This document shows, in pieces, positions 6,628-62,492 of a DNA stretch of 64,000 nt (positions are counted from its first letter, which is position 1; every line of letters starts with the position of its first letter). The notes below the pieces were generated by a model. It saw nothing but the letters and a program-made list of their open reading frames with translations, was not told where the DNA came from and made no database searches. Origin of the DNA: Oceaniferula marina (GTDB taxonomy: Bacteria; Verrucomicrobiota; Verrucomicrobiia; Verrucomicrobiales; Akkermansiaceae); assembly GCF_013391475.1 (NCBI RefSeq), contig NZ_JACBAZ010000003.1, positions 186,001-250,000 on the forward strand, written 5' to 3'. The translations under genes and the position numbers were made by a program.

Positions 6628-7698
6628 ATGAAAACACCTCAAAAAATAAGCTTGGTCACCCAAACCGCCAACATCCTGAGGGATCAGATCGCCACCGGAA
6701 AAATCCTGCACATGCTCCCCGGCGAAAATAAAATGTCGGAAGACCTCCAGGTCTCCAGAAAAACCCTGCGCGCCGCCCTGCTCATCCTCACCAGCGAAGA
6801 AATCATCTCAGAACCCACTCCAGGAGCCCGCCGACGCATCCTCAGTAAACCACAAAAAGTTAATCAACAACGCAGCGTCGGTATTCTCCTGCCCCGCCCG
6901 CTGGACGAATTACACGCATCCTCTCAGGACCTCTTCCGCGCCTTACGCAAAAACCTGAACCGGCTCGGAGTCTCCATCCACTACCACGACTATCCGTTCC
7001 TCACCACTCGCCAAAACCCGAACCAAATCAAAGGCATCTTCAAATCCCACCATGCGGATGTCTGGGTGGTCCTCGAAATCACGACCACCATCGTTGAAAT
7101 CGCCGAAGAACTGAACATTCCCGTTGTTGCCTGCGGCGGCCGGACCCATAACAAATTTCACAACGTCGCCTACGATGCCGTCTCAGCGTTGGAGCACGCC
7201 TTCCACAACCTGATCAATCACGGCCACCAACGCATCTGTTACCCAAGTGACAAACAAGGATCAAGTATTCCCAGTCTGGCAAGCATCCTCGAACAGCAAG
7301 GCATCGAAGTCATCCCGGAACTCCACTTCCCGGCCTGTGATCAGTCCACCACCGACTTCGTCTGCATGCTGGAGCGGCTCTTCAAACGTCCCAATCCACC
7401 GACAGCCTTCATCACCGGCGGACCACGCAACCTGATCACCTTGATCACTTGGCTCGCCAAACAAAAACTCTGTGTGCCTGAAGATGTCTCCATCCTGCAT
7501 ATCGGTTCCGACCCCATGATCAGCCCCATCATCCCGAAGATCAGCTACTACAGCACCTCCTACGCACCACTCGCCAAACAACTCGGCCGGATTATTTCAG
7601 CCCTGCTCGAGAACCCAAACGCCAAGCTCGAACAAAAAACCTTCTTTATGGACTACATCCCCGGCGCCAGCCTGGCCCCACCCCAATCACAGCCATGA
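6628..7698 (+). CDS. GntR-type HTH regulator with LacI-like sugar-binding domain
   Basis: A 356-residue protein from ATG 6628; an in-frame TTG at 6580 is less likely. Residues 5-70 form a GntR-type winged helix (ILRDQIATGKIL, then VSRKTLRAALLILTSEEII). Residues about 75-350 look like a periplasmic-binding-protein-like effector domain of the LacI/GalR type (VGILLPRP, HHADVWVV, PPTAFITGG, VPEDVSILHIG). This GntR-plus-Peripla_BP_3 design is common in Verrucomicrobia and Planctomycetes and usually senses sugars, so repression or activation of carbohydrate genes is inferred. The immediate upstream neighbour is the orphan solute-binding lipoprotein. The stop codon lies inside a 16-bp direct repeat that recurs at 7903-7918 and flanks a dispersed repeat, so an element has settled exactly at the 3' end of this gene. 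Confidence 0.85.
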   Translation: MKTPQKISLVTQTANILRDQIATGKILHMLPGENKMSEDLQVSRKTLRAALLILTSEEIISEPTPGARRRILSKPQKVNQQRSVGILLPRPLDELHASSQDLFRALRKNLNRLGVSIHYHDYPFLTTRQNPNQIKGIFKSHHADVWVVLEITTTIVEIAEELNIPVVACGGRTHNKFHNVAYDAVSALEHAFHNLINHGHQRICYPSDKQGSSIPSLASILEQQGIEVIPELHFPACDQSTTDFVCMLERLFKRPNPPTAFITGGPRNLITLITWLAKQKLCVPEDVSILHIGSDPMISPIIPKISYYSTSYAPLAKQLGRIISALLENPNAKLEQKTFFMDYIPGASLAPPQSQP

Positions 7699-7918
7699 CC
7701 CGAGAACCAAGGCGAATACACTAGGGGCTAACAGCCTGCGGCGCTGACAGGATTCACATGATTGAAGAGGATCTACAGAATTCTTTTAAGAAGTAAGCGA
7801 TAAGTTTTGGGCACACCTTGATCTTTGAGAATTAAAAATCCTGACCATCCTGTCAGCGCCGCAGGCATCACCGATGATCATCTCCCTAATGTAGGAGGCA
7901 TGCATGACCCGAGAACCA
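7694..7918. repeat. Dispersed repeat with long internal inverted repeat (uninterrupted copy)
   Basis: The sequence CATGACCCGAGAACCA occurs at 7694-7709 and again at 7903-7918. Between them CCTGCGGCGCTGACAGGAT (7735-7753) is repeated as its exact reverse complement at 7847-7865. A second copy in the opposite orientation lies at about 60757-61170, with high identity over the arms and the intervening AT-rich part, but interrupted by a 201-bp element at the point equivalent to 7773-7775. No ORF is present. The nature of the repeat is unknown; it could be a miniature mobile element or a structured RNA cassette. Confidence 0.75.
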
Positions 7919-57947: not shown

Positions 57948-58745
57948 ATGATAAAAATAGTAGCCACTCTGCTCCTCCTCAGTTTTTGGGTTGATGCCAA
58001 AACTCCCGCAATTGTAGCACACAGAGGAGCATCCCAAGATGCACCGGAGAACACCATACCGGCTTTTAAGCTGGCCTGGGAACAAGGGGCAGATGCCATT
58101 GAAGGCGATTTCTTTCTGACAAAAGACAATCACATCGTATGCATTCATGACCCTAACACGAAAAAGGTAGCGACCCGAAATCTGGAAATAAAAAAATCCA
58201 CATTGGCTGAACTACGCACGCTGGATGTAGGCGTTAAGTATGCTGACCACTTCAAAGGGACGAGCATCCCGCTCATCTCAGAAGTTTTTGCGACGGTCCC
58301 CGCACAAAAAAAGATGATTTATATCGAAATCAAATGCGGCACTGAAATCATACCTCCCTTACTTAAAGAAATCGGAAGATCAGGGCTCAAGCAAAAACAA
58401 ATCGTCATCATTAGCTTCAACCACAAAGTGATCGAAGCCATGAAGATCAAAGCCCCACAGTACAAAGCCTTCTGGCTTTCGGGCATGGAGAGGGATCGAT
58501 CGGGGAAACCAAATCCTTCGTTGGAGACCGTGCTCTCAACCTTGAAAAAAATCAACGCAGACGGCTTTAGCTCACACCACCGGCATATCGATAAAAAATT
58601 CATACGAGAGCTCATCGACAAGGGTTATGAATATCACGTATGGACCGTTGATGATGCCAAGACGGCAGCGCGTTTTCAGCAATGGGGAGCAACATCCATC
58701 ACAACCAATGTGCCCGCCCATATTCAAAAATCCATCGCCAAATAA
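57948..58745 (+). CDS. Exported glycerophosphodiester phosphodiesterase
   Basis: A 265-residue protein from ATG 57948 (signal peptide ends near VDA-KTP). GDPD motifs: IVAHRGASQDAPENT (His, Arg, Glu), GADAIEGDFFLTKD (Glu, Asp), and CIHDP (His). IEIKCG and WTVDDAKTA near the end complete the TIM barrel. It splits glycerophosphodiesters to glycerol 3-phosphate and an alcohol in the periplasm, for phosphate or glycerol scavenging. The stop codon TAA (58743-58745) is also the left target duplication of the 201-bp element that starts at the next base. Confidence 0.92.
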   Translation: MIKIVATLLLLSFWVDAKTPAIVAHRGASQDAPENTIPAFKLAWEQGADAIEGDFFLTKDNHIVCIHDPNTKKVATRNLEIKKSTLAELRTLDVGVKYADHFKGTSIPLISEVFATVPAQKKMIYIEIKCGTEIIPPLLKEIGRSGLKQKQIVIISFNHKVIEAMKIKAPQYKAFWLSGMERDRSGKPNPSLETVLSTLKKINADGFSSHHRHIDKKFIRELIDKGYEYHVWTVDDAKTAARFQQWGATSITTNVPAHIQKSIAK

Positions 58746-58946
58746 TACCAAGTAGTAAAACAGACGGGACGATCGCCGAGATGAATGAGTTCTTTGGTAA
58801 GGCGCGACGAAGGAATGGTGCGGGCACCATGACTAAGGAGAAACAAAGCCAAAGGAGTCATTCATCCGGAACTCTCATGCATCACGCAGTGCTTTTCCAA
58901 ATACCTCAACAACGATCAATCGTCTCGTCTGTTTTGCGGAGTGGTA
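58746..58946 (+). mobile_element. 201-bp miniature inverted-repeat element, copy 1
   Basis: The element runs from TACCA to TGGTA and is flanked by TAA on both sides (58743-58745, 58947-58949). Its ends form imperfect inverted repeats of about 30 bases: ATACCA, six unlike bases, then AAAACAGACGGGACGAT on the left against AAAACAGACGAGACGAT on the right. There is no coding capacity. Copy 2 at 60896-61096 is in reverse orientation with about five mismatches in 201 bases. This is the form of a non-autonomous transposable element (MITE); the transposase family is not known, though TA/TAA targets fit IS630/Tc1-like enzymes. Confidence 0.8.
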
Positions 58947-58949
58947 TAA

Positions 58950-59202
58950 ATCCGCAGGCAGGCAAGCCATATCAATAGGCTCATGCTCATGAAGCTGCAG
59001 CATCGCTCAAGCGTTCTCCATTGAAGCCCACGCTTCTACAAAGGACTCACACGCCCCCCGTGGGTCGATCGGAACCACACTGAGTCAACAGACCGAATCA
59101 AGATTCGAGGCCGGCAACACCGTCACCCTCCTGACCAGTCTGGTTTTGCCGCTGCTTCTGATCCAAATGAGAGCGGGTATCCATACCCGCGCCCAAGGGA
59201 TT
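58950..59202. other. Gene-free stretch with a lysS terminator-like hairpin
   Basis: No ORF is supported. GCGGGTAT (59173-59180) pairs with ATACCCGC (59183-59190), which on the minus strand follows the lysS stop by 12 bases and could end its transcript, although no T run follows. The rest shows no feature I recognise. Confidence 0.45.
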
Positions 59203-60687
59203 CTAGCTTTTTTTCTTCAGCAGAGGGAAAAGAACAACGTCACGGATGGTCGGGGCTCCGGTGAGCATCATGATCAAGCGGTCGATCCCGATGCCGATAC
59301 CACCGGCCGGCGGCATACCATTTTCAAGCGTTTCAACGAAGTCGTGGTCGATTTCCTGCTCTTCCTCTCCGCCAGCCTGATGCTCGAGGCGCTCACGTTG
59401 GACATCGGGGTCGTTGAGTTCGGAATATCCGGGTGAAATTTCCTGACCGTTGATGATCAGTTCATACACTTCCACGGTCTTGCCACCGGGGGTGACTTTT
59501 GCCAAAGGAATCAGCTCGCTCGCCACCCGGGTGACAAAACAAGGGTCAAAGGTGTGTTCTTCCACCTTTTTCTCGAAAACCTGCTGGACCACTTCATAGT
59601 CCTCCATTTCCGGTGAGATCTGCACGCCGAGTTCGTCACATTTGGCGCGACGTTGCTCCGGTGTGATATCGAAGAAATCGTCCCCGGCGACCTCTTTGAT
59701 CAAATCATGGTAATTCGCCCGCTTCCATGGACGCTGCAGGTTGATCGTGCGGAGCACATTCCCCTCCTCGTCCTTGTGCTCGATTTCAAGTCCACCACAG
59801 AACGTCTCTGCCAAATGACAGGTCATTTCCTCCACCATATTGGCCATGGTTTCAAAATCACCGTAGGCAGCATAAGCCTCAAGCATGGTGAACTCCGGGT
59901 TATGCCGACGGGAAATGCCCTCGTTACGGAAGTTGCGATTGAGTTCAAAGACCTTGGTGAATCCACCCACCAGCAGGCGCTTGAGGAACAGCTCCGGAGC
60001 AATCCGCAGCGTGAGATCCATGTTCAAGGCATTGTGATAGGTTTCAAACGGACGGGCGGCAGCTCCTCCGGCCACACTCTGCAGCATTGGCGTTTCCACC
60101 TCGAGAAAATCGCGCTCGTGCAGGAACTTCCGGATCTCGGCAATCATCTTCGAGCGGGTGATAAACACCTCGGCGCTCTCCTCGTTGCTCATCAGGTCGA
60201 GATGGCGCTTGCGGTACTTGGTTTCGCGGTCGGACACGCCGTGCCACTTGTCGGGCATCGGGCGAAGCGACTTCGAAAGCACGGTCAGGCTGTTGACTTT
60301 GACTGACGGTTCGCCCTTACCGGTGGTGAACGTCTCCCCCTCCACGCCGATCCAATCGCCGAGGTCAAGCAGCTTGTAGGCAGCCCAATCGGTTTCACTG
60401 ACGCCCTTTTTATTCAAATAAATCTGAATCCGGCCCTCGACGTCACCGAGCGTAGCAAAGACGGATTTACCCATATCACGGATCGCAAGCAAGCGACCGG
60501 CGATGGTCACCTGTTTTTCATCGGCAAAATCGGCCTTCAATTTACCCGGCGTGGTTGTGGTATCAAACCGGGCACCGTAGGGGTCGATCCCAAGCTCACG
60601 TAGCTGGGCCAACTTCTCGCGGCGAACAGCGATCAGTTCAGCTTCCGTGGATTGGGGTGTCTCTTGCTTTTGTTGCGGGTCGCTCAT
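59203..60687 (-). CDS. lysS: Lysyl-tRNA synthetase, class II
   Basis: A 494-residue protein from ATG 60687. The N-terminal OB fold (KQVTIAGRLLAIRDMGKSVFATL) binds the anticodon. Class II motif 1 lies near residue 190, motif 2 is FRNEGISRRHNPEFTMLE, and motif 3 is GIGIDRLIMMLTGAPTIRDVVLFP. The length and PPAGGIGIG context are typical of LysS. It charges tRNA-Lys in the cytoplasm. The frame extends nine codons upstream to 60714, but MSDPQQKQ is the likelier start. Confidence 0.96.
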   Translation of the reverse strand: MSDPQQKQETPQSTEAELIAVRREKLAQLRELGIDPYGARFDTTTTPGKLKADFADEKQVTIAGRLLAIRDMGKSVFATLGDVEGRIQIYLNKKGVSETDWAAYKLLDLGDWIGVEGETFTTGKGEPSVKVNSLTVLSKSLRPMPDKWHGVSDRETKYRKRHLDLMSNEESAEVFITRSKMIAEIRKFLHERDFLEVETPMLQSVAGGAAARPFETYHNALNMDLTLRIAPELFLKRLLVGGFTKVFELNRNFRNEGISRRHNPEFTMLEAYAAYGDFETMANMVEEMTCHLAETFCGGLEIEHKDEEGNVLRTINLQRPWKRANYHDLIKEVAGDDFFDITPEQRRAKCDELGVQISPEMEDYEVVQQVFEKKVEEHTFDPCFVTRVASELIPLAKVTPGGKTVEVYELIINGQEISPGYSELNDPDVQRERLEHQAGGEEEQEIDHDFVETLENGMPPAGGIGIGIDRLIMMLTGAPTIRDVVLFPLLKKKS

Positions 60688-60756
60688 GGCGCGCGGAGCA
60701 TAGGAGCGAAACAAAATATTTCAAGGGCGGAAATTCAGCGGTCTTTCTTGGGCTCC

Positions 60757-61170
60757 TCCATTAGGGAGATGATCTCGGTGATGCCTGCGGCGCTGACAGG
60801 ATGGTCAGGGTTTCTTTTAGATTTTACAGGATGTTTAATTTTCAAAGATCAAGGGTTGGCCAAAACCTATCGCTACCTTCTAAAAAATCATGTAATACCA
60901 CTCCGCAAAACAGACGAGACGATTGATCGTTATTGAGGTATGTGGAAAAGCACTGCGTGATCCATGAGAGTTCCGGATGAATGACCCCTTTGGCTTTGTT
61001 TCTCCTTAGTCATGGTGCCCGCACCATTCCTTCGTCGCGCCTTACCAAAGAACTCATTCATCTCGGCTATCGTCCCGTCTGTTTTACTACTTGGTATAAA
61101 TCCTCTTCAATCCTGTGAATCCTGTCAGCGCCGCAGGCTGTTAGCCCCTGCTGTATTCGCCCTGGCGGAC
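60757..61170. repeat. Second copy of the long-inverted-repeat element, interrupted
   Basis: In reverse orientation to the copy at 7694-7918. CCTGCGGCGCTGACAGGAT lies at 60784-60802 and its reverse complement at 61119-61137, and the outer flanks (CTCCTCCATTAGGGAGATGAT on one side, CTGTTAGCCCCTG on the other) also match. Between 60896 and 61096 it carries the 201-bp inverted-repeat element at the point corresponding to 7773-7775 of the other copy. Confidence 0.78.
60896..61096 (-). mobile_element. 201-bp miniature inverted-repeat element, copy 2 (nested)
   Basis: Reverse-oriented copy of the element at 58746-58946, differing at about five positions. It is flanked by TAA (60893-60895 and 61097-61099). 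Removing the element and one TAA restores the sequence of the related repeat near 7770 apart from one base, so this is a true insertion with target duplication. Confidence 0.82.
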
Positions 61171-61208
61171 TGTCGGGTCACCCAGCCACCTCTGCGCCCC
61201 CTCCATTC

Positions 61209-62492
61209 TTAAGGCTCGTTCAAGCAAGTCCGGAAACCCGTAAACACATCCGTTCGTCCAGGGAAATACGCCTGGCGGTAGGTGTTGCGAATCAAATTCG
61301 AACTTGTGGCACAAGAACCGCCACGTGTCGTTTTATGATCTCCAAACTGCAAAGTCGACATGTAGGGGTACCGATCCACACAAAAACCATCGTACGGCAG
61401 GTACTGGTTCGTCGTCCACTCCCAGGCCGTGCCCAGCATCTGCCGGCATCCTCCGGGGCTTGCACCATCAGCTAGAGCATCGACGGCCAGCTGTCCTAAG
61501 CAACGACCATCCATATCAACCAGCTCCGCATGCATGGTGTCCCCCCATGGATATAGCCGGGCGTCTCCGCCTCTGGCGGCGGCCTCCCATTCATACTCCG
61601 ATGGCAAGCGCCGTCCTGCCCATTGGCAATACGCCTCGGCCTCCCAGAAGCTCACCGCTATCACTGGGCAACGAGTCGGCAAGGGTTGCCAGACATTAAA
61701 CCTTCTCAAGTACCAGTCTCCGTGGTCTTTTTTCCAGTACGATGGCCGACGGCGCGCGCCTTCTCTGAGCCAATGCCGGCCACCAAAGCTCCACAACTCA
61801 GATCGTTCATAGCCACCATCCTCGACAAAGTCCCGGAACTCGCCACAACTCACCAAGGTTGGAGAGATGGCAAAGGCTTCCACATCCATCTCAAAACCCG
61901 GCTTTTCATGATCGAAACAAAACACCCCCTCGCCTGGAGGCTCGGCAGGCATCCCAATCCGGTACTTCCCCGTCGGGATTTCCACATCAGACAATGACAA
62001 CCTATCCGATTCATCCGGGCAATCAACATGCCCCATAAACGATGGCTGAGGATACGCCAAGATCTGCCGGCTATAAATCAACGACTCCACATGCATGTTC
62101 TGGTGGGCAATTCCATACCTCACCAAATACGCCTGATAGGGGGTGAGAACGCCGGAGGTCAACACCTCCCTCATCTCATCCAGAATCCGATGATAATACG
62201 TAAAGGTTGTCTTCCGATCCGGAACCAATCCATCGCGCCAACGTTCCCGGTGCTGAATTTCCAGTGAATCCCAAATCTCATCAAACCCCGGCATCCTCGC
62301 ATCCGGGTGGCGGAACTCGCGGAGAAAAAAGGATTCGTAAAAAAAGGCAGAATGCCCCACCTCCCAAATAGGTGGATTGATGCCACGGTGATAGGGGACA
62401 GCCAACTGATCATAACTCAGATCATCTATCAGCATCCGCATCTTCAGATCCGCCTCATCCAATGCTGCCAGCAAATCATTCGCACAATTCAT
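61209..62492 (-). CDS. EgtB/SenA-like non-heme iron C-S (or C-Se) bond-forming enzyme
   Basis: A 427-residue protein. Residues about 5-165 are a DinB-like helical domain with iron-ligand motifs WEVGHSAFFYESFFLR and AHQNMHVES. Residues about 180-425 are a formylglycine-generating-enzyme-like (SUMF1) domain (CGEFRDFVEDGGY; VSFWEAEAYCQWAGRRLPSEYEWEAAARGG; GTAWEWTTNQYLPYDGF; RGGSCATSSNLIRNTYR; FTGFRTCL). This is the layout of EgtB, OvoA and SenA. The run ESLIYSRQILAYPQP resembles what I recall of SenA (selenoneine synthase) more than mycobacterial EgtB. No egtD, senB or senC lies in the window. Product could be ergothioneine or selenoneine precursor. Confidence 0.8.
   Translation of the reverse strand: MNCANDLLAALDEADLKMRMLIDDLSYDQLAVPYHRGINPPIWEVGHSAFFYESFFLREFRHPDARMPGFDEIWDSLEIQHRERWRDGLVPDRKTTFTYYHRILDEMREVLTSGVLTPYQAYLVRYGIAHQNMHVESLIYSRQILAYPQPSFMGHVDCPDESDRLSLSDVEIPTGKYRIGMPAEPPGEGVFCFDHEKPGFEMDVEAFAISPTLVSCGEFRDFVEDGGYERSELWSFGGRHWLREGARRRPSYWKKDHGDWYLRRFNVWQPLPTRCPVIAVSFWEAEAYCQWAGRRLPSEYEWEAAARGGDARLYPWGDTMHAELVDMDGRCLGQLAVDALADGASPGGCRQMLGTAWEWTTNQYLPYDGFCVDRYPYMSTLQFGDHKTTRGGSCATSSNLIRNTYRQAYFPGRTDVFTGFRTCLNEP

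Follow-up and report, generated by a model that had tools for sequence, protein, structure and literature searches.

A 201-bp mobile element of Oceaniferula marina contains a core hairpin that recurs in MITEs with unrelated ends in two phyla

The window, a 64,000-nucleotide stretch of the Oceaniferula marina genome, contains two copies of a 201-bp element (hereafter named MITE family A) that begins with TACC and ends with GGTA. Copy 1 lies on the forward strand at positions 58746–58946 and copy 2 on the reverse strand at 60896–61096; they are identical at 196 of 201 positions, in agreement with the opposite orientation and the identity of about 97% given in an earlier note on this DNA. The imperfect terminal inverted repeats described there were also found in both copies, with a length of 29 nt and 79% complementarity, at 58745–58773 (including one target base) and 58919–58947 in copy 1 (+ strand) and at 60895–60923 and 61069–61097 in copy 2 (− strand). 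As had been claimed, each copy is flanked on both sides by TAA in the forward-strand reading, at 58743–58745 and 58947–58949 for copy 1 and at 60893–60895 (low side) and 61097–61099 (high side) for copy 2. A 21-mer from the left end matched twice in the window and not once in 100 shuffles. The longest ORF entirely within a copy encodes 43 aa, a short, non-coding content typical of MITEs, and the fold energy of the element gave z-scores of -6.66 (RNA) and -3.88 (DNA). The covariance model of a core hairpin with a G-A ladder matched the window exactly twice, once in each family A copy, on the purine-rich strand at 58788–58859 (+; 75.5 bits, E 1.9e-21) and 60983–61054 (−; 74.2 bits, E 4.8e-21).

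Copy 2 interrupts a dispersed repeat (60757–61170), of which an uninterrupted copy is present at 7694–7918. When the insert was removed and the triplet kept once, the alignment ran through to the uninterrupted copy, with small differences and gaps away from the insertion point, which bears out the location of copy 2 inside this repeat. The empty site proposed in the earlier note stands in so far as an uninterrupted copy is present, but its target at 7773–7775 is CTA, whereas the interrupted copy has TTA/TAA. The dispersed repeat bears inverted GCCTGCGGCGCTGACAGGAT ends and may be another non-autonomous element; further MITE copies in or beside it were seen by eye at loci L019, L065, L097 and L290.

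The O. marina genome, as searched, comprised 5.07 Mb in 88 contigs. Blastn of the 201 bp returned at least 48 matches, and at least 41 of them were near-full-length copies with 97–100% identity, distributed over many contigs (scores were computed for 40 of the 99 first-look candidates), as expected of the mobile element that had been proposed. With up to three mismatches, the left end had 62 matches in this genome and the right end 86, and the reversed control had none. Within the loci read, a script pattern matched 55 distinct copies, of which 44 carried an identical triplet on both sides and 11 did not. The matched triplets were TAA in 20 copies, TTA in 19, TCA in three and TGA in two. Hence, the flanking duplication foreseen for TAA was found as a TNA duplication in four versions, and not merely as TAA. 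A TNA duplication is a trait of IS5/IS1031. One tandem pair of copies has a common TTA. The first base of the left end was T in 47 of the 55 copies, G in three, A in three and C in two, perhaps as a result of imprecise left-end processing.

Mechanically called ORFs beside 37 of the copies in this genome were convergent in 15 cases, divergent in three, in the same direction in 18 and of unknown arrangement in one; 13 of the 37 copies overlapped an ORF at least 90 aa long, and no strand preference is claimed. In four of the 37, including window copy 1, the upstream ORF ended exactly at the triplet. At these places the insertion occurred exactly at a stop codon (TAA at 58743–58745 in the window) and the duplicated TNA restores the stop.

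Any family A match was found in 15 of 142 genomes, O. marina included, and the relatives carry few copies. The end pattern, searched in 107 genomes, gave at least 113 matches in O. marina and, among the matches listed, one or two in each of six others, and none in the reversed control. Plasmids had no match to the family A element or to one Akkermansiaceae core, and a core pattern searched in viral contigs did not match exactly anywhere. By the features tested (short, gene-less, inverted ends, target duplication, dispersed copies and an empty site) the element is a MITE. The near-identical dispersed copies, the TNA duplications and the differing flanks agree with the view, already put forward in the earlier note, of a non-autonomous and recently mobilised element; as read from these sequences, family A is real and has recently multiplied, presumably moved in trans.

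Outside its own genus, family A was matched mostly over element positions 49–106, and the ends there were often different. This region belongs to a 72-nt core that recurs in MITEs with unrelated ends in two phyla. A core pattern found 13 stretches in genome contigs, nine from Akkermansiaceae MAGs, two from Rubritalea profundi, one from Roseibacillus and one from an Acidobacteria MAG (G499). The named relatives point to Verrucomicrobiota as the phylum of O. marina. At E≤0.001, the covariance model matched 12 of 387 genomes of this phylum, O. marina among them, when 12 candidates were scored in each genome; in the G499 phylum, with 14 candidates scored in each, it matched 72 of 347 genomes, G499 among them. 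In 14 chosen genomes the core counts were 109 (G224), 47 (G079, Rubritalea profundi), 34 (G103), 27 (G499), 17 (G047) and 13 (G377), with 1–10 in each of the other eight.

The O. marina genome itself had 113 core matches at E≤0.01, and in 20 stretches fetched from it the core was located in at least three MITE families: A, present in the window, B (TACCATTTGAGTGG...) and C (TACCATTTGATCAG...). Family B, with TACCATTTGAGTGG ends, was read at L271–L277 and L288–L290 (L274–L277 at contig ends), and family C with the core at L278, L279, L281 and L283–L287. Family C was also found inside the family A core, at one identical point in L068 and L073; L077 combines parts of both families, with the join inside the core. 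Four elements of the G499 phylum, of about 275 bp, contain two inverted cores (L206, L212, L213 and L214), the second one being weak in L206 and L212. Conversely, five 99-bp copies of the element had no core match; three of them have a common junction, and the triplets match in four of the five. These core-less copies with matched triplets have probably moved too, and the core is thus probably dispensable for movement. The shared junctions suggest movement after deletion, recurrent deletion being the alternative.

Comparison of nine hand-picked end types revealed that the loop of the core was 79% identical (minimum 67%) and the helices 40%, and that the first 25 nt of the ends were 34% identical (maximum 60%). 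Inverted repeats bracketed 76 of 88 core matches with scores exceeding 14.6, which is the 99th percentile for 230 random places; the median was 20.8 against 9.6 for random places, where the largest value was 15.8. The lower hairpin stem may add to some of these scores, and in a few cases (e.g. L186, L188, L197 and L209) the brackets are unlike element ends. No bracket was detected for the other 12. This set excludes one of 89 matches, dropped for its short flanks, includes two places twice and counts each of the four double-core elements twice. Many clear core elements had TNA or YTAR-like flanks, some of them mismatched, and one layout.

The fold of the core was assessed in three alignments, in which rows from one genome are non-independent. 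In the sequence-only alignment (n=21), the outer and apical helices were paired in 93.3% of cells, compared with 66.5% after shuffling and at most 51.1% when slid. In 46 distinct sequences (alignment A2), 92.3% of helix cells were paired versus 58.3% shuffled, and covariation was 0.902 versus 0.265; A2 and the alignment of 39 distinct sequences from the G499 phylum (A3) were fitted to models that contain the outer and apical helices, which biases the pair counts in these helices towards the structure. What had been supposed to be an internal loop is a ladder in which Watson-Crick pairs separate three tandem G-A/A-G steps. Tandem steps of this kind form sheared G-A pairs. In A2 the ladder starts inward with G-C (45 of 46) and two positions that are mismatched, in most sequences as G-A and C-A. 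It proceeds with a pair for which 24 sequences have G-C, then a covarying Y-R pair (C-G in 30, U-A in 13) and G-A/A-G. A covarying pair in the middle (C-G 35, G-C 7, A-U 1) is followed by the next G-A/A-G step, and a covarying R-Y pair (A-U 23, G-C 15, G-U 3, U-A 1) by G-C (41), the last G-A/A-G step and the apical helix.

Six inner pairs of this ladder covary in the 46 sequences (0.435 versus 0.169 shuffled, and at most 0.065 when slid); in the 39 sequences they were paired in 94.8% of cells with a covariation of 0.374 versus 0.111, and the central G-A step was intact in 39/39 and 38/39. The ladder columns are unpaired in both models, and the alignment was therefore not fitted to pairs there. 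In both sets, the score, the paired cells and the cells changed on both sides were reached by none of 500 shuffles, and the further pair types by four of 500. A fifth measure, how many pairs had changes on both sides, was unexceptional and says little: shuffles reached it both in the helices (38 of 500 for the 21-sequence set and 325 of 500 for the 46) and in the inner pairs (51 of 500 for the 46 and 311 of 500 for the 39). The weakest inner pairs were 19-88 of A2, unpaired in 16 of 46 sequences, and 28-95 of A3, unpaired in eight.

Three counts of G-U and A-C pairs in the helices gave G-U:A-C ratios of 32:8, 86:8 and 40:6; for inner pairs, the ratio was 14:1 alongside the last of these, and only 7:5 in the six inner pairs of A2. 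The excess of G-U over A-C in most counts points to the folding of one strand, as RNA or as single-stranded DNA. Since a cruciform would treat both strands alike, a single folded strand is favoured, and the pair counts indicate that it would be the purine-rich one.

Several element types have another short hairpin, of the GCGAAGC kind, in their right half downstream of the core. Two other functions considered for the core were set aside. The ladder contains two facing Shine-Dalgarno-like GGAG stretches, and several families have a disrupted second stretch (columns 82, 83 and 87), for which reason ribosome binding was not taken further. A CTGANGA box like that of the hammerhead was also considered and dropped; neither the second stem nor the cleavage triplet of a hammerhead was seen.

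A full-length transposase element with family A ends, anticipated in the earlier note, was not seen in limited searches of draft genomes. In the O. marina genome PF01609 (DDE_Tnp_1), the sole transposase family sought there, was present in two places, neither with TACC ends, and reading of the unpaired family A ends revealed no autonomous TACC element. The end pattern likewise gave no such element among the matches listed for 107 genomes, no pair of ends at IS distance with a transposase in five relatives, and no TACC-ended autonomous element in 20 stretches read from G058 and G079. An IS of O. marina with a 430-aa transposase and CATTGGCGTCAAAATAAG ends (L223, G000:C1:392012-392737) adjoins a MITE copy, and its flank is also found beside L010 and L030; it was rejected as the partner of family A, as it carries its own different ends.

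For another end type a candidate partner was found. Genome G683, from the phylum of the Acidobacteria MAG, contains two copies of a complete IS, 1491 bp between the duplications and 99.9% identical over 1497 positions, with target duplications CTAT/CTAT and CTAC/CTAC and with CAGCCCGTGG ends, which are also the ends of core-bearing MITEs. Its 462-aa protein has the domains DUF772 and DDE_Tnp_1, and its best NCBIfam match was IS1182 (NF033551), with 175 bits, below the curated cut-off of 270. Five shorter CAGCCCGTGG-ended elements were read in G683; four had a core match at E≤0.001 (L217 weakly), and the fifth, L219, only at E 0.0025. The 1491-bp IS thus resembles IS1182/IS5 in its domains and shares its ends with core MITEs; unlike these, it has no core match (none at E≤1). 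These sequences support mobilisation of the CAGCCCGTGG end type in trans by an IS1182/IS5-like DDE element.

Eukaryotic CORE-SINEs, which are retroelements, have a conserved core with exchangeable ends. The MITEs studied here are like them in this arrangement and unlike them in that DNA transposition, and not retrotransposition, is involved. Among bacterial elements, Nezha, Correia/NEMIS, RUP and ERIC are short, gene-less and inverted-ended with robust folds, according to PMC3733652 (for Correia also PMC4853749), and family A resembles them in all these respects; its covarying module, common to MITEs of unrelated ends and extending to another phylum, may set it apart from them. TIRtron/TIRYT repeats, as treated in PMC3733652 and PMC6006769, are small hairpin repeats with a trans partner. 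REPIN/RAYT systems have GTAG-tagged REP hairpins and a Y1 gene nearby. The elements described here resemble both in probably being spread by a trans partner and in the double cores of some, but have inverted ends and a duplicated target, and the matched IS encodes a DDE and not an HUH transposase. Rfam 15 gave no match at E≤1 in window positions 58500–61500 and none at E≤0.1 in the cores of 16 loci; one element matched only miRNA models, far under gathering (best 35.1 bits versus 268). Acido-Lenti-1 RNA (RF01687), whose name points to related phyla, was rejected, as it had no match on the core and a single sub-gathering match about 680 bases away in one locus. No published description of the core and no match to the core and end strings were found in the literature searched, which misses most subscription papers.

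Taken together, the data make it probable that family A is a trans-mobilised MITE with an internal single-strand-folding module common to MITEs of unrelated ends. A transposase, which for the TACC ends we infer to be of the DDE kind, would recognise the inverted ends and cut and paste the gene-less element in trans, with insertion duplicating the 3-bp TNA target. The 72-nt module, with its outer helix of about 11 bp, three-step G-A ladder and apical hairpin, would be folded by one strand, and the same module would ride in MITEs of many unrelated ends in the O. marina phylum and in Acidobacteria. It would act in single-stranded form. The likeliest such form is an RNA made by transcription running through the element, to which we give somewhat better than even chances; action as single-stranded DNA is rather unlikely. 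A conserved host protein may bind the module RNA. The module would help MITEs to persist or spread whatever the transposase, for example through tolerable insertions or shielded transcripts.

Several other explanations have to be weighed. Long palindromes can covary through template switching without any function, and the core might be mere palindromic filler kept by descent in a plain MITE, a single lineage whose ends were exchanged or drifted when new transposases were taken up. The single layout, the TA-containing targets (TNA or YTAR-like) of many clear cases and the probable movement of core-less copies would fit this explanation. However, a filler loop should drift at least as fast as the helices, whereas an identity of 0.79 was seen for the loop and 0.40 for the helices; covariation is also seen at the single Watson-Crick pairs that lie between conserved G-A steps, and the mismatched steps should likewise have been repaired by template switching. 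We regard plain filler as unlikely. Slightly less credit is given to the possibility that the module is a single-stranded DNA hairpin recognised by a transposase of the HUH (Y1) type, comparable to REPIN/RAYT or TIRYT systems, with the terminal repeats being secondary. The strand-biased fold is consistent with it, the double inverted cores of the four G499-phylum elements recall REPINs, and TIRYTs are reported in Acidobacteria in PMC3733652, but DDE chemistry is indicated by the duplication of TNA/CTAN targets and by the long inverted ends, the CAGCCCGTGG ends are those of a DDE element resembling IS1182/IS5, and copies without the core probably moved.

A separately mobile hairpin that inserts into any MITE could also explain why families A, B and C of a single genome have the core in common, and why double-core elements exist; in the elements folded, however, the lower helix of the core is continuous with the element, and we consider this doubtful, a little more so than the HUH reading. 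It is very improbable that the core is a double-stranded protein binding site within the MITE, as the conserved ladder sequence might suggest, given that the helices vary freely yet stay complementary and that G-U exceeds A-C. Segmental duplication instead of transposition, to which the position of copy 2 in a repeat could have pointed, is for practical purposes ruled out: most copies have different flanks and their own duplicated triplet, and a segmental duplication would not yield identical TNA on both sides of 44 of 55 copies.

The recurrence of the core hairpin across end types and two phyla thus points to an undescribed function of this hairpin. A bolder proposal, which we hold tentatively and at less than even odds, is that the G-A ladder hairpin represents a new class of structured RNA or single-stranded DNA, present in at least two phyla and hundreds of copies, in MITEs that have switched transposases repeatedly. 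MITEs are usually taken as decayed ISs with an unimportant interior. The mismatched steps kept and the inner pairs covarying across two phyla, while the ends have changed beyond recognition, would mean that here the inside is selected. With such a module one can test what benefit a folded strand brings to an element that has no genes, and a large set of natural variants is available for this. If the proposal is true, these MITEs would be a bacterial counterpart of the CORE-SINEs, in which a conserved passenger, and not the ends, defines the selfish lineage.
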